A stretch of DNA of 64,000 nt from Dastarcus helophoroides (lineage: Eukaryota > Arthropoda > Insecta > Coleoptera > Bothrideridae): positions 33,148,411 through 33,212,410 of the forward strand of contig CM053331.1 of NCBI GenBank assembly GCA_028583605.1. The letters run 5' to 3'. Position numbers and translations under genes: made by a program. A model generated the notes under the pieces. That model did no database searches, had not been told where the DNA came from, and saw only the letters and a list, made by a program, of their open reading frames with translations. Of the stretch, positions 1,871 to 56,665 are shown one piece after another. Position 1 is the first letter of the stretch, and each line of letters opens with the position of its first letter.

Positions 1871-2015
1871 TGCAAACATTTGGATTAGCACAGGATATAC
1901 TTGTTCCGAGATTGGACCGTGTCAAAGAACTACTAAAAGCGTTCGACGTTTTGCCCACCATCGTAGGGGGTTTTTTGAGGAACAATGAAAAGAAACAATA
2001 AATGAAAAGAGAAAT

Positions 2016-2028: not shown

Positions 2029-2039
2029 AGATAATAAGC

Positions 2040-2063
2040 CTTGTATATACGAATATATACAAG
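2040..2063. other. Perfect 10-bp hairpin in the hammerhead unit
   Basis: CTTGTATATA, loop CGAA, TATATACAAG. The hairpin is repeated at 2506-2529 in the second unit and lies about 11 bp inside the left TSD, that is, near the 3' end of the minus-strand transcript. It may be a recognition structure for reverse transcription, but this is inference. Confidence 0.75.
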
Positions 2064-2287
2064 TCTATTACGGTGCAAATGAAATCTAATTTCATTAGAA
2101 TCTAATGAAAACTAGGCTGCAATTGCAAAGTTCACGTAGATGAGGCAAAGCTTGTATCACGGGTTGCGTCGCAACATCCATAGATACAAACGTCCTCGGC
2201 GTGACTTTACTTTCATCTAGTTTTGACAAACGACCAATTAAATGTTCTGTAATTAAACAGTTAAACGTGCTTAAAATTGAAAATATG

Positions 2288-2352
2288 TACAACCGCAACC
2301 ATAGACTAGTTTCGGCCTTCCTTGGCCTCGTCAGCATGGTACGGTGGTTGTA
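2288..2352 (-). ncRNA. Hammerhead ribozyme, type I, copy 1
   Basis: Read on the minus strand, the core is CTGACGA, then stem II GGCC/GGCC with loop AAGGAA, then GAAA, then a two-pair stem III (AC-TA-GT), then C17 of a GUC triplet. Position 7 of the core is free, so CTGACGA satisfies the consensus. Stem I pairs ACCAT with ATGGT next to the core. After an internal loop, a 7-bp outer helix (TACAACC/GGTTGTA) closes the fold. Predicted cleavage lies after the base complementary to 2304. All consensus core positions are present, so this copy should be able to self-cleave. A purine change in the outer helix relative to copy 2 is matched on the opposite strand, so pairing is kept. Confidence 0.88.
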
Positions 2353-2753
2353 TACACTTCCAATTTAAAGCCGTTAGTCAGTCGTATAAGTATCCAAGAG
2401 AGCAAACCTCCATTGGGTGACTTGTAACTGACTTTTAACTGTTTATTACGCAAACATTTTCGCCACATGCTAGTTGAAGCATTACTCTCTGCTGAGATAA
2501 TAAGCCTTGTATATACGAATATATACAAGTCTATTACGATGCAATTAAAATCTAATTTCATTAGAATCTAATGAAAACTAGACTGCAATTGCAAAGTTCA
2601 CGTAGATGAGGCAAAGCTTGAATCAAGGGTTGCATCGCAACATCCATAGATACAAATGTCCTCGGCGTGACTTTACTTTCATCTAGTTTTGACAAACGAC
2701 CAATTAAATGTTCTGTAATTAAACAGTTAAACGTGCTTAAAATTGAAAATATG

Positions 2754-2818
2754 TACAATCGCAACCATAGACTAGTTTCAGCCTTCCTTGGCCTCATCAG
2801 CATGGTGCGGTGATTGTA
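2754..2818 (-). ncRNA. Hammerhead ribozyme, type I, copy 2
   Basis: Same fold as copy 1, shifted by exactly 466 nt. The core CTGATGA and GAAA are intact. The base closing stem II next to GAAA is T instead of C, turning the usually strong G-C pair 10.1-11.1 into a G-U wobble, so weaker activity is expected. The outer stem I is TACAATC/GATTGTA. Predicted cleavage lies after the base complementary to 2770. Confidence 0.82.
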
Positions 2819-2868
2819 TACACTTTCAACTTAAAGCGACTGACTAACGGCTTTAAGTTGGAAGTGTA

Positions 2869-2933
2869 TACAATCACCGTACCATGCTGATGAGGCCAAG
2901 GAAGGCCGAAACTAGTCTATGGTTGCGATTGTA
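2869..2933 (+). ncRNA. Hammerhead ribozyme, type I, copy 3 (inverted unit)
   Basis: Best-preserved copy. CTGATGA is at 2887-2893, stem II is 2894-2897 with 2904-2907, loop II is 2898-2903, and GAAA is 2908-2911. Stem III is A2911-U2916 and C2912-G2915, and C17 is 2917. Inner stem I is 2881-2886 with 2918-2923. The internal loop is 2876-2880 facing 2924-2926. Outer stem I is 2869-2875 with 2927-2933, a 7-bp perfect helix. Internal loop I and loop II are placed where natural type-I hammerheads make their tertiary contacts. Confidence 0.9.
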
Positions 2934-3000
2934 CATATTTTCAATTTTAAGCACGTTTAACTGTTTAATTACAGAACATTTAATTGGTCGTTTGTCAAAA

Positions 3001-3013
3001 CTAAGGGAATATG
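3001..3013. repeat. Right 13-bp TSD of the hammerhead element
   Basis: Exact match to 2016-2028. PLE-1 sequence resumes immediately after it. Confidence 0.85.
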
Positions 3014-14723: not shown

Positions 14724-17008
14724 GGGGTAACACCACTGTAAATTTTTCAAAAAATCAATTATTTTTAGGCTTAAAAAATACTTTGAACCTTTTAGAATAT
14801 GGGGAAAAATATTTCATACCTCAAAGTATTTTTTTTTCTTGAAATTTCGAGCTCTTCCCCAAGCGCGTCGGACTGCTCCGAAACGACACCTGCGTCAGAT
14901 GAATACCTGCTGGGAAGGTACAGCCTAATGTCCTACGTTTTGATTTCTATCTTATCAAATACACTAACAGATGCCATTATAAAGCATTTATATTCAGGTA
15001 GAAGCATTTCTAATCAATAGAACGTTAGTGTAGAGTCAACTCGTGTACAAAAAGGACATAATTTCGTCGCATGAAATCACGATTTTTGTGTGTAGTGCTG
15101 ATTTTTAACAGTTTATTTGTAATCTCAGTGTGCTTGTAAGTTACAAAAAAAAAGTGCAAAAGTGTAACAGGGCAAGAAAGGTACGAAAAAATCGTATCCA
15201 ACGCGACGTCGGACCAACGAGACGACCGTTGAATAGATATGAGACTGAGAGTGATTCGAAAGGAGTCAGTGCTTCTGCGCAAAAATTAGAAGTTAGTGAT
15301 GAAGATTTTGATATTAATTATGAATTAAGCTATAGAATTATAAATTTTGTTGCCGTTTTCTCTGTCATTTCACAACACGTGAATTCAGACATCACGTTTC
15401 ATGAAAGGAGTCCTCGGGGCTTAGGCTTCAAAATAGTTATCGTTTGTCCGAAATGTCTAGATGCTGTTATTCCAAGTAGTAAATTCATACGAAATGCATA
15501 TGAAAGTAACCGTCGAATCATGTTAGCAACGCGACTACTAGGAATAGGACTAAATGTAATAACAAAGTTTTGTACTTTCATGAAATTGCCACGACCGATA
15601 TTTCAATCTTTTTACGACAAATTTGTGGATATGATTTCGATCGCAACAGCAACCATACGAGAGGCTAGTATGAAGAAAGCAGCGCTAGAAGAGAAAAAGA
15701 AAAGTGAAGAAGATGGACAACTTGAAGGGATAACTGTTTCCGGTGATGGCTCGTGGAGGAAACGCGAATTTTTTTCGCTTTTTGGAATCACCTCATTTAT
15801 TGGATGGTTTACAGGCAAAATCGTCGATATTGAAGTGAAGTCAAAGCACTGCAAATCTTGCGAGCACTGAAAGAATAAATTGGAAACAAGTGAGTATGAA
15901 GAATGGTACAAAAAACACGTCGATGAATGTCAAGCGAACCATGAAGGCTCAGCTGGTAAGATGGAGGTAGACTCTGTCGTCGAGATGTTCCAACGATCCT
16001 AAACGTTGCACGGTCTCAAATACGCAAACTACATCGGTGATGGTGACAGCAAAACCTTCAAAGGAATAATGGTTAAAATCCGTACAAAAATTTTAAAGTA
16101 CAAAAGAAAGAGTGCATTGATCATGTACAAAAGAGAATGGGCACTCGATTGGGAAATCTGAAAAAAAAGTTAAAGGCCTCGGAGGAAAAGGTAAATTAAC
16201 TGCAAAATTAATTGATCAATTAACAATTTATTAGGGCGTGGCTATACGTCGGAATCCGGATTCCTTGGAAAATATGAAAAATGAAATCTGGACAACCTTA
16301 TATCAAGAGTTATCAACCGACGGAAATCCGCAGCACGAGAAGTGCTCAGAGTTTTGATGTAACTGGAAGAAGGGCAGCTGTATGGTCCTGGGATAGCAGA
16401 TTAATAGTAAAAAAAATTAAACTGTCAAATTTTACATTTTTTCATGTCTATAATGCAGTTCAAAACTTTAAAGGCGTTTTTCTCGAAACACGATTTTTCA
16501 AAACGGCACGCAGCATAACTCCAACAATTTTCATTCTTTTCATTCGAATTTGTTAAAATATCTTTAAAATAAGATTTTGAAGAGAAATACGTAGAGGGTT
16601 TTCGATAAGTTAATTTAATCATTATTTATTAACAAATAATTATCTATTTTTTTTGTTGAAAATTTAAAGATTTAATTCAAATACTCGCCAATCACACCAA
16701 AATCAATATTTTTAAAATCCCCTACGTATTTCTCTAGCTATAAGCATGTACAATAAGTGTTTTTTTTCTAATTCCAAATTTGCAGCAGCTACACTGCGTG
16801 CCGCAGAGCGCCTCAAATTCTACGTGCCTCGCGAAAATGGCCCTGGTGGCGTCATTTTTGAATATTTTTTTATAATAATTCTCTATTTTGTTACTTAAAT
16901 ATACGCTAAATAACTTCCTCCAATATTATAATTTTATTACCTTTCCTTCCACCCAAAAAAAATTACAAACAAACACGTTTTTTTGGGCTCTTACAGTGGT
17001 GTTACCCC
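14724..17008 (+). mobile_element. Kolobok-like TTAA DNA transposon
   Basis: A perfect 18-bp terminal inverted repeat, GGGGTAACACCACTGTAA (14724-14741 and reversed at 16991-17008), is bounded by TTAA on both sides (14720-14723 and 17009-17012). TTAA duplication is shared by the piggyBac and Kolobok superfamilies. The coding remnant inside has the GDGSW...K motif series of the Mutator-like/Kolobok transposase family and nothing like piggyBac, hence the call. At 2285 bp it is close to autonomous size but coding-defective. It sits inside the mariner coding region. Confidence 0.8.
15130..16380 (+). pseudogene. Kolobok/Mutator-like transposase, with stops and a frameshift
   Basis: An open frame of 246 codons (15130-15870) starts with a basic region and contains VIVCPKC, then VSGDGSWRKREFFSLFGITS, then GKIVDIEVKSKHCKSCEH. 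After an in-frame TGA at 15868-15870 (probably a former Trp codon) the same frame continues with a Cys/His-containing stretch, a TAA at about 15999, and YIGDGDSKTFKGI, the second acidic motif. A further frame gives GGKGKLTAKLIDQLTIY and AIRRNPDSLENM. The Asp residues in GDGSW and GDGDS are presumably catalytic. At least three lesions make it a pseudogene. Family membership is from recalled motif similarity only. Confidence 0.75.
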
Positions 17009-21136: not shown

Positions 21137-22675
21137 TTATCTATCAATCTTAACTATTTTTAACAGAGTAGAATGGGTTAAAGGTCCAGCGCAACCATTC
21201 ATAAGGTTGTTTCCAGCCTTATGGATGGCTAAGCTCTTACATGCATTTAACATATAATTCTCATAAACTACTCTTAACAATTTAATATTATTATCTATCC
21301 TATGATCTAATTCAAAAGCATGTCGAGCCACACTTGACTTCTCAGTTCTTCCGTACCTCAAATGAGCCAAATGTTCTTTCAGTCGGATTTTAAGAGATCG
21401 TCTAGTTTGTCCGACATACTTTTGAGGACAATCCCTACATGACATTTGGTAAATACCAGACTTATCTGTTTGCTCTACTTTATCCTTTAAACTACCCAAA
21501 AGCGAATTTAATTTTCCGTTAGAAGTATAAATAACCCGAAAACCCTGATTTCGTAAAATTCCACCCAAACCTTGCGTGAGCGAGGGTTCAAATGGAAGTG
21601 AGACGAATTTAAAGTTTTTGTTTTCATCAGCTCGGAAAGTTGTAGTATTCACAAATTCACATTTAAATTTTTTCTTATTAATAATTTTATAAATAATATT
21701 TGGATCGAATCCATTAACTTCAGCTATATGTTTAATTGTCTTCAACTCCTTTCTGAATCTTTCCCTACTAAGAGGAAGACTCAGAAGGCGATGGGCAAGG
21801 AAGTTGAAGCTTGCCATTTTGTGCTGTATGCAATGGTTAGAATCGGAAGTTATATAGCGGAAGGTACTGGAATCTTTCCTATATACATCAAATTCTAATC
21901 TATTTTTATTCCTAATAACTAAAGTGTCTAAAAATGGTAAAGCGGCTTCTTTCTCTAATTCTACGGTGAATTTAACTGTTGGAAAACGTGAATTTAAAAC
22001 ATCAATGAAATTATCTAAATTTTGATTTTTTGTGTCAAAAATAGCAAAAATATCATCTACATATCTAATCCATACCCTAGGAAACAAACTACATTCGTTT
22101 TTAAGACGACTTTCAAAAACACCCATGAAGAGCTCAGCCATGAAAGGTGACAAAGGATTTCCCATGGCTGCTCCCTCAAGTTGTTCATAAAATTCGTTAT
22201 TAATTTGGAAATAATTTTGATCCATACATATTTTCGTTAATGAAATATATTCGTCAATAATTTTGCCTGAAAGGTTATTAGATTCCAACAGATCTCGAAG
22301 GTATAATAAAGTTTGAGGTATGGGTACACTGGGAAAGAGGGAAGAAACATCAAAAGAAACCAGCATTTCACCCTCCAACAACTCTTCATTCTGAATTTTC
22401 TGTACAAACTCTTGGGAATTCTTGACTGACAAACTGAGTTGTTGGAATTCTAATTTGCTGAATTCTTTTACTAGCCATTTTGATAATTTATAGGTCGGTG
22501 TTCCAATAGCTGACACAATTGGTCTCACCACCTTTCCGGGCTTATGTATTTTTGGCAGACAATATAATTTAGGTACGGTGGGGTTAGATACATGAAGGGA
22601 TCTTTTTAAAATTGGAGTAATAAGGTTGTTACTTTTGTCGAGCACTTTTTTCAGCCCGCTTAACATTTTACTCAA
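21137..22675 (-). CDS. PLE-3 reverse transcriptase with GIY-YIG endonuclease (5'-incomplete)
   Basis: A 512-residue open frame. It shows PKIHKP (residues 41-46), LVSFDVSSLFPS (105-116), AAMGNPLSPFMAELF (169-183) and the RT catalytic RYVDDIFAIF (204-213). PFLD follows at 247-250. A GIY-YIG endonuclease begins at GIYQMSCRDC (407-416), with KYVGQTRRSLKIRLKEH at 419-435. PLEs use the RT for target-primed cDNA synthesis and the endonuclease to nick DNA. The frame really begins further upstream: after an in-frame TAA at 22694-22696 the same frame carries FYIKADKGNKVVILDK, the PLE KADKGN block. It is therefore one stop codon plus a missing N-terminus away from full coding. The first codon of the open stretch is not a true start. 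Confidence 0.88.
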   Translation of the reverse strand: MSKMLSGLKKVLDKSNNLITPILKRSLHVSNPTVPKLYCLPKIHKPGKVVRPIVSAIGTPTYKLSKWLVKEFSKLEFQQLSLSVKNSQEFVQKIQNEELLEGEMLVSFDVSSLFPSVPIPQTLLYLRDLLESNNLSGKIIDEYISLTKICMDQNYFQINNEFYEQLEGAAMGNPLSPFMAELFMGVFESRLKNECSLFPRVWIRYVDDIFAIFDTKNQNLDNFIDVLNSRFPTVKFTVELEKEAALPFLDTLVIRNKNRLEFDVYRKDSSTFRYITSDSNHCIQHKMASFNFLAHRLLSLPLSRERFRKELKTIKHIAEVNGFDPNIIYKIINKKKFKCEFVNTTTFRADENKNFKFVSLPFEPSLTQGLGGILRNQGFRVIYTSNGKLNSLLGSLKDKVEQTDKSGIYQMSCRDCPQKYVGQTRRSLKIRLKEHLAHLRYGRTEKSSVARHAFELDHRIDNNIKLLRVVYENYMLNACKSLAIHKAGNNLMNGCAGPLTHSTLLKIVKIDR

Positions 22676-24007: not shown

Positions 24008-26075
24008 TTTTTTTTTTAAGAAGGTGAAAATCCTTTACGGACATCTGGGAAGATAACCCAGATAGTGTCGGACTTCCGCTGAAATTACGGGTACCGACTA
24101 AAAACCCCTACTTTTTCGGGCCGGGCCCTTGGCCCCCAATCCCTCCGTCGGACAGTACAATAGTGCTGGAGCACTATTGTAAGCTGTTTTGCCTGAAACA
24201 TAAGAAACAAACAAAACAAAAATTTTCGAAATGGAAGTCGACGCCTTGGTATCCTAATCCTGGTTGGGACGTTTGGATCGTAATTCACTGCCTGTCGAAC
24301 TAGTTCGTTTGGATGCGTTTTCGCTCTCACCATCGCCCTGGAATTAATTTCCCTAAGAAAATCTCTTACCAAAGGTAGTTTAGTTTCCCTATGAAGTTGA
24401 TTGTTTCTTACAAACCATGGAGCGTCCATGGCTTGTCTTAGAAAGACGTGCTGGAACACCTGGAGTTTCTTCATCTGATTATCCGTCGCCTGTGACTAAG
24501 CTACAGATGCGTAGGTCATCGCTGGTCTTATGACTGATTTGTATAGTAACAATTTAAGTCCAATGGAAAGGTTACTATTTCTGCCAATCATCGCTTGCAG
24601 CAGCCCCTTTAACATTTTGGCTTTGGACACTACATAATCGATGTGTGCCTGGAAAATTAGTCTTTTGTCAAGAATTACACCTAAATACTTTGCCTTGAAT
24701 TCTCCAGTCGACGTTTTGCTAATGAACATTTACATGTCCATATAGTTGGAGTCTTCTTCGGGTGAAAAACACTGCTTGGGTCTTGTCTGTGTTAACTTGG
24801 ATTTTCCATTGACCGAAGTAATCTAGTTGCCTCCTGAAGTCGCCTGGTGACCACCTCTGGACTGTAAGAGTACACCACCAAAGTTGTGTCGTCTGCGTAA
24901 GTTGCCAATAAGGTGTGGTCGATTGTTGGATTGGTTCTCGGGATGTCTGCTGTGAACAGAGAATACAGCAGAGGTGACAAAGCAGAGGCTTGAGGCACCC
25001 CATACTGTAGCCTAAACTGGTTTGATAGTTCCTGTCCCACCTTTGCTGTGAATGAGCGCTGGTCCAGGAACGAGCTTACCAATTGAACCATCGTTAGATG
25101 CATTCCAAACTGGTGCATCTTGTAGACTAATCCTTGGTGCCAAACTATGTCAAATTCCTTGGAGATATCGAAGAAAATAGCTCCAACTACCTGGTTCCAG
25201 TTCATGAGTTGAGAGATTGTTTCAACCACTCTCATCAGCTGGTCTGAGGTAGAGTGCATAGGTTGGAACCCAAATTGTTCCTTAGAAATGATGTCGCGAT
25301 CGCTGATGATACTCTGCAAACGCTTCCTTAAAATCCTTTCCGCCACCTTACCCAAGTTGGATAAGAGGCTGATTGGCCTGTAATTTTGGGAAAATTTCCC
25401 ATCTTTACTTGGCTTAGAAATGAAGATAACGTTTGCAGTCTTCCATCTTGTGGGAAAATACCGGTACTTAAACATGGAATTGACTATTACTCCGAAGTAT
25501 TTGACAGCTTGGTCCGGAAGATACTTTAGAGCTTGGTTTGGAATTCCATCTGGACCTGAAGACTTTTTGACTTTTTGCGCAGAAAGCTTTGGATTTTCTC
25601 TTTGTTAGTCGGTTAGATAACGTCGTCTTCTTCTGGTACTTTCTCCTGAAGAACTTGAACCTCTTCTTCCACCTCCTCTACGAAGTCTAAGTCCACTTCG
25701 TCAAGCCTGACAGTGTCATTCAAAGGTCTCAGCGAAAGCTGCGGGCTTATCCTGATCTGAGTAAGCCATTCCTTGAGGTCCGTGGAACGGTGGGATAGGT
25801 TTCCTATCTCCTCTTAGAGCTTTGGCTGTGCGCCAGAGATCTGATGGAGTTTCGAGATTGCAACTTCTTAGGTGTTCCTGAAACTTAGAAATTTTGTGCT
25901 CTTGGAGCTCATACCTGAGCTCGTGGATGACCCTGTTGACTTCCGCCTTATCTGCTTGCAGATTGGTGCGTCTTGATCTCTTCTTGGCACGATTTTTCCT
26001 TCTCATCAGTTCCACCAAGTGATTTGGCAGTGGTTTCCTTCCTTCTATACGCCGGAAAGTTTTGGTCGCTGCCAA
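24008..26075 (-). mobile_element. Jockey-type LINE, 5'-truncated, inserted in PLE-2
   Basis: Flanked by the 7-bp TSD TCAAGAA (24001-24007 and 26076-26082). A run of ten T (24008-24017) at the low-coordinate end is the poly(A) tail of the minus-strand element. The interrupted PLE sequence is continuous in PLE-1 near 4004-4025, which confirms the boundaries. At 2068 bp it is a 5'-truncated copy, the usual outcome of target-primed reverse transcription. Confidence 0.9.
24085..26075 (-). pseudogene. Jockey-type ORF2 remnant
   Basis: Pieces in order: 25716-26075, a basic Arg/Lys-rich region before the RT (ELMRRKNRAKKRSRR, and SDLWRTAKALRG). Then 24792-25475 is the RT core, with FISKPSKDGKFSQNYRPISL, FFDISKEFDIVWH, YGVPQASALSPLLYSLF and ATYADDTTLVV (YADD box intact). 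Then 24719-24835, shifted by one base, has LDYFGQWKIQVNTDKTQAVF. 24496-24729 has KYLGVILDKRLIF, and 24085-24474 is the C-terminus. At least three frame breaks; the endonuclease domain is missing through truncation. The motif set fits the Jockey clade. Confidence 0.87.
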
Positions 26076-26747
26076 TCAAGAAAAGGAAGAGATCCGTTGT
26101 TTTCGATTTCCGTAGTGAATCTAATGGAAGAATGTAAACCGTTTAGGTGTTCGAAAAATAAATTTAGTGAATCCTTGCCATGCGGCCATACAATAAATGT
26201 GTCATCTACATAACGAAGCCAAACCTTGGGTTTTAAATCCGCAGTTTTCAACGCAGTGCTTTCAAAAGATTCCATGAAAATATTTGCTATGACTGGGGTT
26301 AAGGGGGCACCCATTAGGGTACCGGAGACTTGTTTATAGAAGCTGCCATTGAAAGAAAAATAAGTCGATGTGAGGCACATTTCACTTAAATCAGCTAGAG
26401 AATCTGCATTCTCTTTGCCTGAAAGTAATTGACGAATTATCGTCATGGAGTCGGAAACTGGAATATTAGTGAATAGTGAAGCGACGTCAAAACTTACCAG
26501 TATGTCTTTGGGGTCTAGAGTTAATTCGGACAATAATCCGACAAAGTGTTTAGAATTTAGGACGTATGATGATGTGTTTCCGGTGAGGATGTTAGATAAA
26601 TATTTGGAGACATTCTAAGAAGGTGAATTTATCGTGCTGACAATGGGCCTAAAAGGAATATTGGGTTTGTGAATTTTGGGGAGATCATAAAGACGAGGTG
26701 GTTTGGATTCTCTCGGAACAAGATGTCTGAGAGTGTCTGCGGACAAC
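26076..26747 (-). pseudogene. PLE-2 N-terminal half of the RT
   Basis: LPKIHKPNIPFRPIVS (about 26640-26690), a TAG stop near 26615, then an open stretch with LVSFDVASLFTNIPV, LMGAPLTPVIANIF and WLRYVDDTFIVW, the YVDD catalytic box, and PFLD where the LINE insertion cuts it. Together with 23240-24007 it covers most of one RT plus endonuclease. The 5' end is truncated at 26747. Confidence 0.85.
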
Positions 26748-34137: not shown

Positions 34138-34391
34138 ATTAATTATTACAAAAAATAAAATTTGAATCTTGTCCCCTGAAACCAAGGTTTCAAGATTTAT
34201 ATTTAAATTTTTGAAGATAACCAAGGGCCAAGGTTCCACCAAAATTAATTATTACATTTTTTTTTTGACAATTAATTGTAACAAAAATTGCAATATAAAT
34301 CTTGTCTCATGAAACCAAGGTTTCAAGATTTATATTTAAATTTTTGAAGATAACCAAGGGCCAGTCCGTTCCACCAAAATTAATTATGACT
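34138..34391. mobile_element. Two PLE-3-type end fragments in tandem
   Basis: The first fragment, 34151-34243, is flanked by the 13-bp TSD ATTAATTATTACA (34138-34150 and 34244-34256). The second, 34284-34378, has the same unusual internal junction (CCTGAAACCAAGG followed by an inverted TTTCAAG) and eroded flanks. The two therefore probably arose by local duplication rather than two insertions. Confidence 0.75.
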
Positions 34392-40199: not shown

Positions 40200-40575
40200 T
40201 CAAACTTCTAGCCCAACTTATTCCTGTTAAATTTCAATTAAATGTTTTATAATAAAACAGTCGAACGTGCTACAGTTGAAAATATTTACAAACAATAATC
40301 ATAGATCGGTTTCCTTGGCCTTAAGAGTATGGTACGGTTGTTGAAGACATTTCAAATTTATAGCTATGAGTCAGCAACATAAATACCTAACGCATGTGAA
40401 TCCTATTGTGTGATTTGTAAATGACTTTCGACTGTACCTCACGAGATATACTTTCTCTACATGCTAATTGCTGATAATTACCACCAAGATGTACGATAGT
40501 TGACAAACTATTAGTAATGAGGTAACTTTCATTCATGTATTATGGGTTGCATAACAACATTCATTAAATACAAGC
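40200..40575 (-). mobile_element. Decayed relative of the hammerhead element
   Basis: Co-linear with the 466-bp unit of 2029-3000. AACGTGCT, TGAAAATAT, CTTGGCC, ATGGTACGG, then TGACTTT, CACATGCTA-like and GGGTTGCATAACAACAT words occur in the same order and orientation. It crosses the unit boundary, so it too was a tandem. The hammerhead core is destroyed: the CTGATGA box and the GAAA box do not survive at about 40290-40335. This shows a genomic family of different ages rather than a single insertion. Confidence 0.72.
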
Positions 40576-43500
40576 GAGGAATTTTGATAAATACTTTTAA
40601 TTTCGACTTTTTTGCCCCAAACTTCAATTTTTGGAAAAGTCGAAGTTTCTGGATGAAAATCGACATATTGATATTTCTTGAATGCTTTCAAGCTTTGACT
40701 TTTTTCAAAAATGTCGACTTTCTCTCTCGAAATTTGGGTGTTTCTTCGGAACTTCAATTAAAAATAATAAGGGCCTAATTTTTTGGACTTTTAATTTAAA
40801 ATTTCGGGAAAAATGTCTTAATTTAGAGGTTTCAGAAAAAGTATATGCTTCCAGTCAATTAGAATTTTGAAAAAGCAATCTGAATTTAATAATATTTCCC
40901 AAAATTTGGACTTTAATAACAATTAACCAGTTTTTCTAGAATTTTCGTGCTTTCGAGGCGAGATTTTTCAGAATTTCTAGTTCAAATTCGACATTTTCAA
41001 TTCTCGATTTCAAATTTTAATTCGAAATTCCAGAAAAAACTTAGAAATTTAATCTAAACTCTGATTTCGACTTTTTGCTCTTAACTTTAATTTTTGGAAA
41101 AGTCGAAATTTCTGGATGAAAATCGACATATTGATATTTCTTTAATGCTTTTAAGCTTTGACTTTTTCCAAAAATGTCGACTTTCTATCTCGAAATTTGG
41201 GGGTTTCCTCGGAACTTCAATTTAAAAAATTAAGGTCTTAATTTTTTTGAATTTTAATTTAAAATTTCGGGAAAAAGATTTAAATTTAGACGTTTCAGAA
41301 AACGTATATACTTCCAGTCAATCAAAATTTTGAAGAAGTAAACCGAATTCATTATTAATTCCCAAAATTTGGACTTTAATAACAAATAATCAAATTTTTC
41401 TAGAATTTTCGTATTTTCAAGGCGAGATTTTTCAGAATTTCTAGTTCAAATTCGACATTTTCAGTTTGCGATTTCGAATTTTAACTCGACATTCGAGAAA
41501 AAAAGTTGGAAATTTAATCTAAACTCTGATTTCGACTTTTTGCTCTAAACTTCAATTTTTGGAAAAGTCGAAATTTCTGGATGAAAATCGACATATTGAT
41601 ATTTCTTTAATGCTTTCAAGCTTTGACTTTTTCCAAAAATGTCGACTTTCTCTCTCAAAATTTGGGTGTTTCCTCGGAACTTCAATTAAAAAAATAAGGT
41701 CTTAATTTTTTCGATTTTTATTTTAAAATTTCGGGAAAAAGATCTAAATTTAGACGTTTCAGAAAAAGTATATACTTCCAGTCAATCAAAATTTTGAAAA
41801 AGCAAACTGAATTCATTAATAATTCCCAAAATTTGGACTTTAATAACAAATAATCAAATTTTTCTAGAATTTTCGTACTTTCAAGGCGAGATTTTTCAGA
41901 ATTTTTAGTTCAAATTCGACATTTTCAGTTTTCGATTTCGAATTTTAACTCGAAATTCGAGAAAAAAAGTTGGAAATTTAATTTAAACTCTGATTTCGAC
42001 TTTTTGCTCCAAACTTCAATTTTTGGAAAAGTCGAAATTTCTGGATGAAAATCAACATATTGACATTTCTTTAATGCTTTCACGCTTTAACTTTTTCCAA
42101 AAATGTCGTCGTTCTCTCTCAAAATTTGGGTGTTTCCTCGGAACTTCAATTAAAAAAATAAGGTCTTAATTTTTTCGATTTTTATTTTAAAATTTCGGGA
42201 AAAAGATCTAAATTTAGACGTTTCAGAAAAAGTATATACTTCCAGTCAATCAAAATTTTGAAAAAGCAAACTGAATTCATTAATAATTCGCAAGATTTGA
42301 ACTTTAATCACAAATAATCAAATCTTTCTAGAATTTTCGTACTTTCAAGGCGAGATTTTTCAGAATTTCTAGTTCAAATTCGACATTTTCAGTTTTCGAT
42401 TTCGAATTTTAACTCGAAATTCGAGAAAAAACTTGGAAATTTAATCTAAACTCTGATTTCGACTTTTTGCTCTAAACTTCAATTTTTGGAAGTCGAAATT
42501 TCTGGATGAAAATCGACATATTGATATTTCTTTAATGCTTTCAAGCTTTGACTTTTTCCAAAAATGTCGACATTCTTTCTCGAAGTTTGGGTGTTTCCTC
42601 GGAACTTCAATTTAAAAAATTAAAGTCTTAATTTTTTCGACTTTTAATTTAAAATTTCGGGAAAAAGATTTAAATTTAGACGTTTCAGAAAACGTAAATA
42701 CTTCCAGTCAATCAAAATTTTGAAGAAGTAAACCGAATTCATTAATAATTCCCAAAATTTGGACGTTAGTAACAAATAATCAAATTTTTCTAGAATTTTC
42801 GTACTTTCAAGGCGAGATTTTTCAGAATTTCTAGTTCAAATTCGACATTTTCAGTTTTCGATTTCGAATTTTAACTCGAAATTCGAGAAAAAAAGTTGGA
42901 AATTTAATCTAAACTCTGATTTCGACTTTTTTCCATAACTTCAATTTTTGGAAAACTCGTAATTTCTGGATGAAAATCGACATATTGACATTTCTTTAAT
43001 GCTTTCACGCTTTGACTTTTTCCAAAAATGTCGACTTTCTCTCTCGAAATTTGGGTGTTTCCTCGGAACTTCAATTGAAAAAATAAGGTCTTAATTTTTT
43101 CGACTTTTATTTTAAAATTTCGGGAAAATGATCTAAATTTAGACGTTTCAGAAAAAGTATATACTTCCAGTCAATTTAAATTTTAAAAAAGCACACTGAA
43201 TTCATTAATAATTCCCAAGATTTGGACTTTAATCACAAATAATCAAATTTTTCTAGAATTTTCGTACTTTCAAGGCGAGATTTTTCAGAATTTCCAGTTC
43301 AAATTCGACATTTTCAGTTTTCGATTTCGAATTTTAACTCGAAATTCGAGGAAAAAAGTTGGAAACTCTGATTTCGACTTTTTGCTCTAAACTTCGATTT
43401 TGGAAAAGTCGTAATTTCTGGATGAAAATCGACATATTGATATTTCTTTAATGCTTTCAAGCTTTGACTTTTTCCAAAAATGTCGACATTCTCTCTCGAA

Positions 43501-44870
43501 ATTTGGCCGTTTCCTCGGAACTTCAATTTAAAAAATTAAGGTCTTAATTTTTTCGACTTTTAATTTAAAATTTCGGGAAAAAGATCTAAATTTAGACGTT
43601 TCAGAAAAAGTGTATACTTCCAGTCAATTAAAATTTTGAAAAAGCAAACTGAATTCATTAATATTTCCCAAAATTTGGACTTTAATAACAAATAACCAAA
43701 TTTTTCTAGAATTTTCGTGCTTTCAAGGCGAGGTTTTTCAAAATTTCCATTTCAAGTTCGACATTTTCAGTTTTCGATTTCAAATTTTAACTCGAAATTG
43801 GAGAAAAAAAGTGGGAATTTTGACAAATACTTTTAATTTTGACTTTTTTGTCTCAAACTTCAATTTTTGAAAAGGCCGAAATTTCCGGATGAAATCAACA
43901 TATTGATATTTCCTTAATGCTTTCACGCTTTAACTTTTTCCAAAAATGTTGAATTTCTTTCTCGAAATTTGGGTGTTTCCTCGGAACTTCAATTTAAAAA
44001 AATAAAGTCTTAATTTTTTCGACTTTTAATTTAAAATTTCGGGAAAAAGATCTAAATAAAGAATAAAAAAAGAAAAAGTATATACTTCCAGTCAATTTAA
44101 ATTTTGAAAAAGCAAACTGAATTCATTAATAACTCCCAACATTTGGACTTAATAACAAATAATCAAATTTTTCTAGAATTTTCGTACTTTCAAGGCGAGA
44201 TTTTTCAGAGTTTCTAGTTCAAATTCGACATTTTCAGTTTTCGATTTCGAATTTTAACTCGAAATTCGAGAAAAAAAGTTGGAAACTCTGATTTCGACTT
44301 TTTGCTCTTAACTTCAATTTTTGGAAAAGTCGAAATTTCTGGATGAAAATCGACATATTGATATTTCTTTAATGCTTTCAAGCTTTGACTTTTTCCAAAA
44401 AATGTCGCCTTTTTCCCTCTAAATTTGGGTGTTTTCTGAGAACTTCAATTTAAAAAAATAAGGACTTTATTTTTTCGACTTTTAATTTAAAATTTCGGGA
44501 AAAAGATCTAAATTTAGACGTTTCAGAAAAAGTGTATACTTCCAGTCAATTAAAATTTTGAAAAAGCAAGCTGAATTCATTAATATTTCCCAAAATTTGG
44601 ACTTTAATAACAAATAATCAAATTTTTCTAGAATTTTCGTACTTTCAAGGCGAGATTTTTCAAAATTTCTAGTTCAAATTCGACATTTTCAGTTTTCGAT
44701 TTCGAATTTTAACTCGAAATTCGAGAAAAAAAGTTGGAAATTTAATCTAAACTCTGATTTCGACTTTTTGATCTAAACTTCAATTTTTGGAAGAGTCGAA
44801 ATTTCTGGATGAAATTCGAAATATTGACATTTCTTCAATGCTTTCAGGCTTTCTGGAAATGTTGATTTTT
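40576..44870. repeat. Tandem array, ten units of about 464 bp
   Basis: The word GGATGAAAATCGACATATTG (with variants) starts at 40651, 41114, 41579, 42043, 42504, 42968, 43420, 43887, 44341 and 44807, spacings 452-467. Each unit has the same order of blocks: CGACTTTTT, CGAAATTTCTGGATG, CTTTCAAGCTTTGAC, TGGGTGTTTCCTCGGAAC, ATTTCGGGAAAAAG, ATACTTCCAGTCAAT, CTTTCAAGGCGAGATTTTTC and AACTCGAAATTCGAG. The outer units are the most diverged and the middle ones very similar, as expected for satellite homogenisation. Non-coding. Confidence 0.92.
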
Positions 44871-45322
44871 TTTCTCGAATTTCGGAATTTTTCTCGAAAT
44901 TTCAACTTCAAAAATAAGAACTTTATTATTTGGAGTTTTAATTCGAGAGAAAAATCTTTTGAAGATTTCAGAAAACGTCTAAATTTCCAGTCGGTTGAAA
45001 GTTTAAGAAAACAGTCAGAATTTCTCAAAACTTCGACTTTAATCCCAAATTTTTATCTCTTTCTCAAATTTTTGAACATTCAAACAAAAATGAGTTTTAT
45101 AAAAATTTTTATTTCTTAATTTCGAATTTTAACCCATTTGAGGAAAAAGTCTAATTTTAGAAATTAAAGTTAAATTGCAAAGAATAAATAATAGTTTTTA
45201 GAACAATTCCACATTTTAAGTTTGAGGTCGAAATTTGAGATAAAAAATTATAAACATCGCAAATCTTAATCAGATGAGTAAAGTCAGAATTTCGAAGAAA
45301 ATTTAAATCTCTTAGTAACAAA

Positions 45323-45513
45323 AATTGAAATACAGAACTTGTCCCCTGAAACCAAGAAAGATTAAAAAACACAATAAAGGTTGCTCTAACGCGTTTCGAC
45401 AGCCAAGCTGTCAGAGCAACCTTTGTTGTGTTTTTTAATCTTTCTTGGTTTCAGGGGACAAGTTCTGTATTTCAATTTTTGAAGATAACCAAGGACCAGT
45501 CCGTTCCATCAAA
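45323..45513. mobile_element. PLE-3-type head-to-head mini-insertion with 13-bp TSD
   Basis: 191 bp flanked by the perfect 13-bp TSD TCTTAGTAACAAA (45310-45322 and 45514-45526). Two PLE-3 terminal segments are joined head-to-head around CTAACGCGTTTCGACAGCC, giving a palindrome with arms of about 65 bp. The right side continues into the terminal GGACCAGTCCGTTCC word. It lacks any coding sequence, so it is an extreme 5' truncation or a trans-mobilised end. Confidence 0.85.
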
Positions 45514-47977: not shown

Positions 47978-50761
47978 CCATTAACGTATAATATTTTTTG
48001 TTTAAATGTGCAAGGGTTATGGTGCCATAGACATGAAATTGAACAATTTCTTACAGATGTTAAACCTGTATTACTTATATTAACTGAATCACACATATCT
48101 AACGATATCAATAACAACGAAATTTACATGAAACAGTACAATATCCTTCGCTGTGATTCACACAGTAGATTTACTGGCGGCATTACTGTTTACCTCCAAT
48201 AAGACATTGAATATGAAATAATTATAAATGAAAATATTATCTTACAATGCTGGATAACTGCTATAAAAATAAATCAGAGTATTTATATATGTGTATACAA
48301 ATCTCCTGTTTCTAGTATGACCATATTTTTACAGAACCTTGAAGAAATAATTATGCCTTTTATCAATGTCCCCAATGTGAATATTTTAGGCGACTTCAAC
48401 ATCAATATAAAGAAAGAGACTACTTATTCGAGAAGATTACTAGAAATGATGCTTGAAAAGGGGTTTGTACAACTAATTACTGATTATACCAGAATTACAT
48501 CACACAGCCGGACACTTATTAACTTGGTATTCACTAAGGGTATAAACATTCAGGCTAAAGTATTACATACACCAAAAATATCAGACCATTCAATGTTAGA
48601 AATCTCAGGAAATCAAAAAAGTAAGTCAACGTTTAAACCACGGGAAAATATTATAAGCACAATCTCGCACCGAAACATTACTAGAATGAACAAAAATTTA
48701 TTCCAAGTAAAATTTGAAACAATGAATTGGAATGATCCCTCAAATAATAATGTAAATTCTATGCTGGACGTATTTTATGAAAATATCACTATCGCCTTGG
48801 ATGAATTTGCACCTTTAAGAACATTTACCGTAAATAATAGTAAAAATAAATGGTACGACACGGAAATAAAAGAGTTAGCTAAACATCGAGATCTATATTA
48901 CCAGAAAGCAATTTTGATTAATTCCACCGACATTTGGAAAGAATACAGAAGATTAAGAAATAATGTGACCAAGCTTATAAGGGAGAAAAAGAAAAATTAC
49001 TATACAAATTTAATTAATCAAAACAAAAATGATAGCAAAAAGATGTGGAAAGTACTTAGAGAAATTATGGATGGTGCTCAAAAAACTTCTCCCGCAAAAA
49101 TGGAATTTGATAATATTAATTTAACTAACCCCCAAGACATTGCTGAAAATTATAACAAATTTATTGTAAATAGCATTGAGCTATTAGTACAATCAAACCC
49201 ATCAACAAGAACAACTATCTCAAATGAACCTATTGAGAGTACGTTTATCCTTAAATCATTTACGTACGAAGAAGTATCAAAGGCCATTAGGAACACAAGA
49301 AATTCATCGACTGATATAGAAGCCGGCGGAGGGTTCATTGCAACCAAATTGACCGATATATACAATAAATCAATTTCTACTACCACTTTCCCAACACGTT
49401 GGAAAACATCATTAATTTTCCCTAAACAAAAAGTACCAAATTCAATACAATCCAGTGATTATAGACCATTTAGTACTATGCCATTCCTCGAAAAAGTTTT
49501 TGAATCATTAATATATACTCAACTTATTAATTACATAAACTCCAATAATATTTTAATTAAACAGCAATCGGGTTTTCGTGAAAAACACTCCTATGAATCG
49601 TCTCTGCAATTAGTAGTATCAAAATGGAAAAAATGGTTGGACAATAATAACTGTGTAGTCATTGCGACATTCCTCGACTTAAAACGTGCTTTCGAAACTA
49701 TTGATAGATCGACTCTTCTAGTAAAACTGGAAAATATGGGCTTTCATGATTCTACAGTACAATGGTTTAGTTCATATCTATTTGGTAGAAGTCAGAGAAC
49801 AACGATCGATGGATTTTCCTCTAATCCTGTCGACAACATTTATGGAGTTCCACAAGGAACGATCCTGGGACCAATATTATTTTTAATGTATATTAATGAC
49901 ATGAATAATGTTATTAGTGATCCAAATACATTCCTAAACCTTTTTGCGGATGATACCCTTGTTACTGTGCTTGATGATAACATTGACAGTGCTATTGATA
50001 AAATGAACTTAGTGCTAGATTCAATGAGTCACTGGTTACAAACAAATAAATTGCTAATTAACACAAACAAATCCAAAGTAATGATAATGGGAAACTATGA
50101 TGCATCTAATATACGACCAATAATATTAAACCAAACAAATTTAGAATATGTCAATGAGATCAAATACTTAGGTATTATTATAGATTCATCCCTGAACTTT
50201 AAAAATCATGCTAAGACTACTATTGATAAACTTTCATCTAGAGTTAAATATTTTTGGCGTATTTGTCAATCTTTGAATCTTCCTGCTAGAATTGACCTCT
50301 ATAAGTCATGGATTGCCCCTTTATTCATCTATTGCCCAACAATTACGCATTATTTCACTCAAGAACTTTTAAATAAACTACAACTATTACAAAATAGAGC
50401 ATTAAGAATCATTTTGCGATGCAATAATCATGTTAGTGTTGATTTCATGCTTGAATGTCTCCAGTTCTTGTCCGTAAAACAATATCTGTTCTATCTTAAC
50501 ATGTGCTTTATTTTTAAAATAACTAAAAACCTTTTGCCGAATTATTTAAAAAGTTGTTTAATCAATGTTAGAGATATTCACAACCATAATACTCGCAACA
50601 CAACAAATTTTTATATAAACACAGTTAAAAAGCAAAGTACCAAAAGATCACTATTTTTTGATGGTTTATGTGAATTCAACAACTTACCTGTTGCAATAAA
50701 AAATTCTAATTCCCTCTATCAATTTAAGAGTCTTTTACGAAAAATTATCCCTAGAAAATAG
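47978..50761 (+). CDS. LINE ORF2: APE endonuclease and reverse transcriptase, one in-frame stop
   Basis: The frame starts directly after ORF1's TAG. It gives CLNVQGLWCHRHEIEQF and LTESHI (endonuclease N-terminus), has a single TAA at 48200-48202, then runs open for over 850 codons. Counting from 48317: LGDFNINI (24-31) and SDHSML (89-94) complete the endonuclease. RT motifs are DYRPFSTMPF (381-390), FLDLKRAFETID (452-463), YGVPQGTILGP (509-519) and the catalytic LFADDTLV (542-549). KYLGIIIDSSLNF and a conserved C-terminal tail with FNNLPVAIKNSNSLYQFK follow. The product would nick target DNA and reverse-transcribe the LINE RNA. Only the TAA prevents a full-length protein, so the copy looks young. 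Confidence 0.85.
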
Positions 50762-56311: not shown

Positions 56312-56665
56312 TCTTGGTTGATCCAAAGTGACGGATAATGGTTTGTCGGAGAAAAAAGATGACACAAGGCTACAATCATCTGCCTAGCTGTATATAGGAT
56401 TGGAAGTTGAAGCTATGAGATTGTTTATGTTTAACAGAAACATAGTAGGAGACAGGAGAGACCCCTGAGGCATCCCTGCAATAGCAAATGTCTTGGATGA
56501 GATGCCATCGACGACGCCCTGAAGAGATCTGTCAGTGAGAAAATTGAAAATAACAGAGTCCAGGAGGAAGATCATAAGATGCTAATTTGGCGAGAAGGGA
56601 TCGGTGCCAGACTCTGTCGAAGGCCTTTGAGATATCCAAAGCCACATAACCTCACCTTTAAATAA
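56312..56665 (-). pseudogene. LINE reverse transcriptase fragment
   Basis: The minus-strand reading gives VALDISKAFDRVWHRSLLAK, a frameshift, then FLTDRSLQGVVDG, PQGSLLSPTMFLL, and a TAG where YADD should start (S-stop-ADDCSL). The core of a CR1/Jockey-group RT, dead. C1 cuts it just after the catalytic box. Its C-terminus probably continues at 50943-51031, although about 200 expected residues in between are missing. Confidence 0.78.

Follow-up and report, generated by a model that had tools for sequence, protein, structure and literature searches.

A retrozyme-like element in Dastarcus helophoroides with two fixed, paired insertion ends, and its probable dependence on Penelope-type machinery

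What kind of element is a short, apparently non-coding insertion that carries three hammerhead ribozyme motifs, and by which machinery was it put in place? The question is raised by a 64,000-nt stretch of Dastarcus helophoroides contig CM053331.1, referred to here as the window. The original prediction, made from the letters of the window, described a retrozyme-like insertion at 2029–3000 with three type-I hammerhead motifs, two of them on the minus strand 466 nt apart. These coordinates proved exact, the insertion being bounded by CTAAGGGAATATG at 2016–2028 and 3001–3013; the motifs and their spacing were confirmed, and the label of a retrozyme-like element, non-coding, tandem and retrotransposed, with type-I hammerheads, is supported. 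Its features are as follows.

2029–3000, arms on the minus and plus strands: retrozyme-like insertion (972 bp) with a perfect 13-bp target duplication
2016–2028, no strand: left target-site duplication, identical to 3001–3013; the joined flanks match paralogous empty sites
3001–3013, no strand: right target-site duplication
2029–2837, minus strand: tandem arm, 1.7 units of 466 nt, whose outer end (2029) is start site A
2829–3000, plus strand: inverted arm, a partial unit from p104 to about p274, whose outer end (3000) is start site B
2288–2352, minus strand: copy 1 of the type-I hammerhead; its cut is expected opposite 2304
2754–2818, minus strand: copy 2 of the type-I hammerhead; its cut is expected opposite 2770
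2869–2933, plus strand: copy 3 of the type-I hammerhead; its cut is expected after 2917

Positions p1–466 number the unit in the RNA sense, with p equal to 2495 minus the window coordinate for 2029–2494. The two arms overlap by 9 nt; direct copies at 2027–2326 and 2493–2792 lie 466 nt apart and match at 97%, and 2850–3003 is an inverted copy that mirrors 2684–2837. The GC content is 0.370 for the element and 0.384 for the unit. As had been remarked, there is no convincing ORF: the largest listed ORF that overlaps the element has 80 aa, and none of the element's listed ORFs is a reverse transcriptase (RT) plus GIY-YIG frame.

The weight of the hammerhead case is carried by repetition of the motif across loci. 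Searching the genome with the window element yielded 466-nt tandem copies, and within 20 fetched loci there are 79 matches to the motif, 75 of them full length and 52 identical to the commonest form. Copies 1, 2 and 3 score 99.7, 93.9 and 99.1 bits with the model R1, which was built from this retrozyme family, so that its 94–100 bits are no independent proof. The proposed check against Rfam gave a divided answer: no family reached its gathering score in the 64-kb window, but Hammerhead_HH9 matched all three places below that score (22.7, 20.7 and 22.6 bits for copies 1 to 3, gathering score 52, E 0.013–0.057). Across the whole genome, 58 of 46564 candidates were scored with HH9, and 57 matches were listed, the best at 45.9 bits; since the same search gives below-cut-off matches in 11 of 14 control genomes, weak single matches mean little. 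A loose hammerhead descriptor found four sites in the window, namely the three motifs and an unrelated site at 56519–56588, and 24 sites in 200 Markov shuffles, a rate (about 0.12 per 64 kb) that makes a single site alone unremarkable.

Within the unit, the hammerhead occupies p143–207 and the predicted cut falls after p191, following GUC at the places originally given. Read from the sequence, helix I comprises an outer part (UACAACC/GGUUGUA) and an inner part (ACCAUG/UAUGGU); then come the intact core CUGAYGA, helix II (GGCC/GGCC), GAA, helix III (ACUAGU) and the C at the predicted cut. Helix III is palindromic: it can form one A–U pair, which leaves CUAG as the loop, or a second pair as well, which leaves two bases between the strands. 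The expectation that a transcript would easily cut itself is not supported, helix III being in effect a single A–U pair with a palindromic loop. Amphibian motifs with a one-pair helix III cut poorly alone and well as dimers (PMC7229834). The newt and axolotl retrozymes described there are like the present element in this respect, HHR_Amex1 having a one-pair helix III with a palindromic tetraloop and performing better as a dimer, and are unlike it in their 330–350-nt unit and vertebrate host (PMC7229834).

Paired changes in the outer helix had been taken to argue for selection on structure, and here the change stood while the argument did not. The replacement of TACAACC/GGTTGTA by TACAATC/GATTGTA is real: C148–G202 becomes U148–A202 in window copies 2 and 3 only, beside the centre of the palindrome, and copy 1 is without it. 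It thus occurs in 2 of 75 full copies, both at the window locus, and copies 2 and 3 have four variants in common over p131–202, a pattern consistent with exchange inside the palindrome or with conversion of copy 1. The changes in the two copies are probably not independent and represent one event at most. Among 18 distinct motifs, 97.7% of 341 cells pair; the shuffle control for covariation gave 12/500 when cells with a double change were counted and 128/500 when pairs were counted, the corresponding values for 15 motifs being 16/500 and 156/500. Covariation as proof of selection was rejected on these grounds, that is, one locus, two copies and a weak shuffle control.

The strongest evidence on how the element moves is the anatomy of its insertions across the genome, which lay beyond the view of the original prediction. 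The genome in which the window lies, 539 Mb in 50 contigs, was searched, and the best-scoring 40 of 2132 first-look candidates, a sample that is not random, were grouped into 40 loci containing 41 insertions, locus L038 holding two. Twenty loci were fetched with flanks and the other 20 were read only at their ends. Thirty-one of the 41 insertions are two-armed, with the arms head to head, and ten are one-armed; in every one of the 31, the left arm is antisense and the right arm sense. The outer ends placed by BLAST fall at two sites about 196 nt apart, site A from p466 to p12 and site B at p267–283, and the two sites are paired: one A end and one B end are found in 30 of the 31 two-armed insertions, with no A/A and no B/B. 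Half of these 30 were fully fetched (L021, L022, L023, L026, L027, L030, L031, L033–L037, the first insertion of L038, L039 and L040) and half read at their ends (RZ21–25, RZ27, RZ28, RZ31–35, RZ37, RZ39 and RZ40). The single exception, L032, has a site A end and an end truncated at p178. At L030, BLAST stops at p244 and the B end was read by eye; at the one-armed L029 it stops at p446 and the A end was likewise read by eye. With L032 left out, 30 of 30 discordant ends would have a probability of 9e-10 if ends were independent and equally likely. Left–right orientation is balanced, with A on the left in 15 insertions and B in 15. The one-armed insertions end at A in L024, L029, the second insertion of L038, RZ26, RZ30, RZ36 and RZ38, and at B in L025, L028 and RZ29.

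Target duplications of at least 10 bp, with up to one mismatch allowed, accompany 32 of 40 insertions (29/30 two-armed, 3/10 one-armed), 16 in each of two sets of 20, the count covering all 41 but the first insertion in L038. Their scored lengths run from 10 to 18, the longer of which can include chance matches with the element's ends, and exactly 12 perfect bases is the commonest form (14/32). For the window copy, the two flanks (198 + 211 nt) were joined and compared with the genome, and 40 of 3077 first-look candidates were scored. All 40 scored matches are contiguous across the junction, with an identity of 92–95% in 39 and 90% in one, so the window retrozyme sits in one copy of a high-copy repeat, the other scored copies of which are empty at that point. 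The host repeat belongs to a Penelope-like element (PLE), PLE-C, of which it forms the 3' part; the PLE-C copies L113–L115 contain stretches 89–92% identical to a reverse-transcriptase fragment at window 26045–26533. Beside the insertion, by-eye alignment with the intact motifs of L113–L115 places one further feature.

1947–1987, minus strand: decayed Penelope-type hammerhead-like motif of the PLE-C host repeat

These observations bear on whether the family is mobile at all, as hammerhead satellites are known, pDo500 being an example (PMC2837043), and the arrays might be satellite DNA spread by recombination. That reading is barely conceivable, for the sampled insertions are scattered over 12 contigs as short arrays with target duplications, and the window copy has paralogous empty sites. 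The pDo500 repeat of Dolichopoda cave crickets is like the present unit in coming from an insect and in being a hammerhead repeat of 463–505 bp, for which single or double hammerhead cleavage has been proposed, and unlike it in being treated as satellite DNA, with no account of insertion ends in the passages drawn on here (PMC2837043, PMC2808323). Its length also removes the suggestion that a 466-nt unit is unusually large (PMC2808323).

The explanation that we consider probable makes the element a non-autonomous retrozyme of the non-LTR kind, with a circular RNA that Penelope-type machinery copies from both target nicks, beginning at sites A and B. As we infer the sequence of events, a transcript would be cut by its type-I hammerheads into 466-nt units, and these units would be closed into circles. 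A Penelope-type reverse transcriptase/endonuclease, presumably encoded elsewhere, would then make a staggered cut of about 12 bp, the stagger itself being established by the target duplications. Each of the two target 3' ends would prime a cDNA on the circle, one of them at site A and the other at site B, and reverse transcription would complete a single lap or several; the arms observed reach 2082 nt, or 4.5 laps. The two cDNAs would finally meet head to head, giving antisense-left and sense-right tandem arms that end at A on one side and at B on the other, with the target duplicated.

Head-to-head palindromes might instead arise if reverse transcription started once and the cDNA then primed itself, a mechanism put forward for the Penelope elements of rotifers. 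Penelope insertions have inverted repeats, duplications of 8–10 bp and a tail at one inverted repeat, and self-priming is the explanation preferred for them (PMC3846280); in the present family, some junctions do overlap by a few bases. Snapping back, however, copies the arm to its own start and should leave like ends, A/A or B/B, of which there are 0 among 31 against 30 A/B, and arm lengths differ by more than one unit in some loci (2082 and 1379 nt in L026). Self-priming is thus very improbable here, and the A/B rule argues against it as the source of Penelope palindromes as well. Twin priming also produces inverted arms and target duplications, and a LINE-type reverse transcriptase using ordinary twin priming could account for that much of the layout. 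This too is quite improbable: the start sites are fixed, 30 of 31 insertions use two different ones, no A-rich end was seen, and an element of the same genome with Penelope-type coding capacity, PLE-A, has a like layout.

Which RNA the Penelope-type machinery would have copied was addressed with 92 units from the 20 loci that were fetched in full. Over 14 sites polymorphic at the family level, 242 of 269 cells agree within loci (mean of 200 shuffles 122.8, maximum 137), and across both arms 154 of 167 agree (shuffle mean 68.8). For such a pattern the simplest template would be one monomeric circle copied by both arms. The other candidate is a genomic array transcribed into one long, linear multimer, the hammerheads then having no role in transposition. 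It has several points in its favour: hammerhead cleavage is unnecessary for the in vitro insertion of an Anolis PLE, hammerhead mutants of which still insert (PMC11167929), and no arm in the 41 insertions ends at the predicted cut site, p191/192, so that the DNA holds no sign that cleavage occurred. The cut site was rejected as an insertion end, ends lying at p466–12 and p267–283 with L029, L030 and L032 as the exceptions. In addition, locus-private variants are present in only part of the units at L021 (2 sites), L023 (2), L030 (2) and L039 (5). A linear transcript should, however, hand on parental unit differences to its daughters, yet the younger insertions consist of units that are nearly identical: within-locus difference is 0.00–0.63% in 12 of 20 loci (L022, L024–28, L031–36), against 1.6–2.3% to other loci, and the nine units of L026, spread over both arms, have zero differences. 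Private variants occur, moreover, in every covering unit of both arms in L027 (5/5), L033 (5/5, two sites) and L031, L032 and L040 (3/3 each), and in all covering units of a single arm in L037 (3/3) and in L021 and L024 (2/2). Difference within the locus is 0.96% for L037 and 1.00% for L040. It is 2.9–5.1% for L021, L023, L029, L030, L038 (two insertions mixed) and L039 (a mosaic), and these loci look older. Taken together, the linear template is unlikely, though the least so of the rival explanations considered.

The folding energy computed for the majority unit is −171.3 kcal/mol (100 dinucleotide shuffles, z = −13.4), and for the window's own unit −155.4, a value obtained without shuffles. 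In circular folds of four real copies, site A lies in a junction rich in unpaired bases and site B near a small hairpin loop, the two flanking a three-hairpin domain at about p285–466. Mean unpaired probability at the start sites of these copies is 0.43–0.44 versus 0.26–0.27. At site B of PLE-A it is 0.19 versus 0.38 and at site B of a second hammerhead family 0.50 versus 0.58; strongly single-stranded start sites were accordingly rejected, the effect being modest in the retrozyme and reversed at the other two.

Both LINEs and PLEs have been named as possible movers of retrozymes, with PLEs a strong candidate (PMC7229834). The window contains a coding element of the second kind.

21137–22675, minus strand: PLE-A, reverse transcriptase plus GIY-YIG (Pfam RVT_1 1.4e-13, GIY-YIG 6.6e-05)

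Its closest organism-named relatives are from beetles, eleven unnamed proteins ranking higher: Molorchus minor (63% over 62% of the query), Tribolium castaneum (56% over 86%) and Aromia moschata (58% over 83%). Taken by themselves, these relatives point to an insect host, perhaps a beetle. Among 84 scored matches to PLE-A, 12 head-to-head pairs were recognised, and the ends of ten of the 12 were sampled, a choice that selects for the head-to-head form and not for tails. In 9 of 9 readable pairs there is one tailed end (p455–456) and one untailed end (p417–425); the right end of the tenth, PLE06, runs beyond the fetched sequence and was left out of the count. Duplications around the pairs were scored at 11–19 bp, with 12 in three. 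A scan of the PLE loci for CTGANGA...GAAA gave 14 rows, eight being the PLE-A motif, three the PLE-C motif and three chance-like. The PLE-A and PLE-C motifs have complementary flanks and lie shortly upstream of the element's end; as R1 and Rfam do not report them as hammerheads, they are termed hammerhead-like. Sequence similarity between the retrozyme and PLE-A was rejected, a blastn comparison of the retrozyme with the PLE loci having found no common sequence.

The second hammerhead family, at L041–L046, is also arranged head to head. R1 matches all six loci, which were picked by HH9, with best E values per locus from 2.4e-06 to 0.0095. A tail of about 40 nt is found on one end only in 3/3 clear two-armed insertions (L041, L044, L045); that count leaves out L043 and L046, each with a single, tailed arm, as well as the fragmented L042 and the masked L047.

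Retrozyme and Penelope insertions of one genome therefore have in common a layout, a one-tail rule, a similar duplication length, and hammerhead or hammerhead-like motifs, and these shared features give the guess that PLEs move retrozymes the form of a specific model that can be tested. An Anolis PLE is reported to cut and extend both strands and to have two internal RT start sites that match genomic tail ends, a chemistry that the A/B rule fits; the enzyme is predicted to dimerise, and no difference in start site between strands was seen, which fits the random orientation of A and B (PMC11167929). The comparison has its limits: PLEs are like the present element in their head-to-head repeats, one-end tail, target duplications and hammerhead motifs (PMC3846280, PMC11167929), and unlike it in that the element here is without an RT or endonuclease gene, and the segment between the start sites is about 196 nt here versus 30–40 nt in the PLEs so described.

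Compared with the animal non-LTR retrozymes of PMC7229834, the present element is alike in having type-I hammerheads in short tandem units, a GC content below 45%, no convincing ORF, a dispersed distribution and target duplications longer than 4 bp. It is unlike them in its unit of 466 nt versus RNAs of ~170–400 nt, a difference in size range and not in mechanism, with type-I repeats cited at 150–450 bp (PMC7229834). The parts of that account drawn on here do not mention, for animal retrozymes, arms arranged head to head with a pair of fixed start sites (PMC7229834). Plant LTR retrozymes are further removed, having a type-III hammerhead in LTRs and a 4-bp duplication, in contrast to type I and at least 10 bp here. 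A literature search conducted largely outside the subscription journals found no account of retrozymes arranged head to head with start sites in pairs. For Penelope, a one-ended tail had been described before; what the present analysis adds is that the pairing is strict in a retrozyme.

A bolder reading, to which we give about even chances, is that the Penelope-type RT acts as an asymmetric pair on a single circular RNA, each insertion being a programmed twin priming that obliges one subunit to start at A and its partner at B, and that retrozymes are Penelope satellites that keep only the order hammerhead, B, tail, A. If the reading is true, the one-A-one-B rule would be a constant of the mechanism throughout the class, and would preserve in DNA a fossil trace of an enzyme that works as a dimer.

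Several other repeats in the window were noted alongside the insertion. An old, decayed copy of the retrozyme family lies at 40200–40560 on the minus strand; its hammerhead core looks broken, and R1 matches a decayed relative at 40287–40345 (6.4e-05). The 464-bp tandem array at 40600–44852 (9.2 copies) was rejected as more retrozyme, as CTGANGA occurs on neither strand, and the closeness of its repeat length to 466 looks coincidental. At 45323–45513 there is a 191-bp head-to-head mini-insertion with PLE-A-like ends, untailed on the left and tailed on the right as judged by eye, with a 13-bp duplication, TCTTAGTAACAAA, whose copies lie at 45310 and 45514; the miRNA-family matches found below threshold there are probably due to this insertion. 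Two tandem PLE-like mini-insertions of ~105 bp, with a tailed right end and ATTAATTATT-like border repeats, were likewise read by eye at about 34140–34380. A Mutator-like transposase fragment (Pfam 1.8e-23) occupies 15130–15870 on the plus strand, and an 814-aa open frame at 48317–50761, also on the plus strand, resembles by eye an endonuclease/reverse-transcriptase protein of a LINE.
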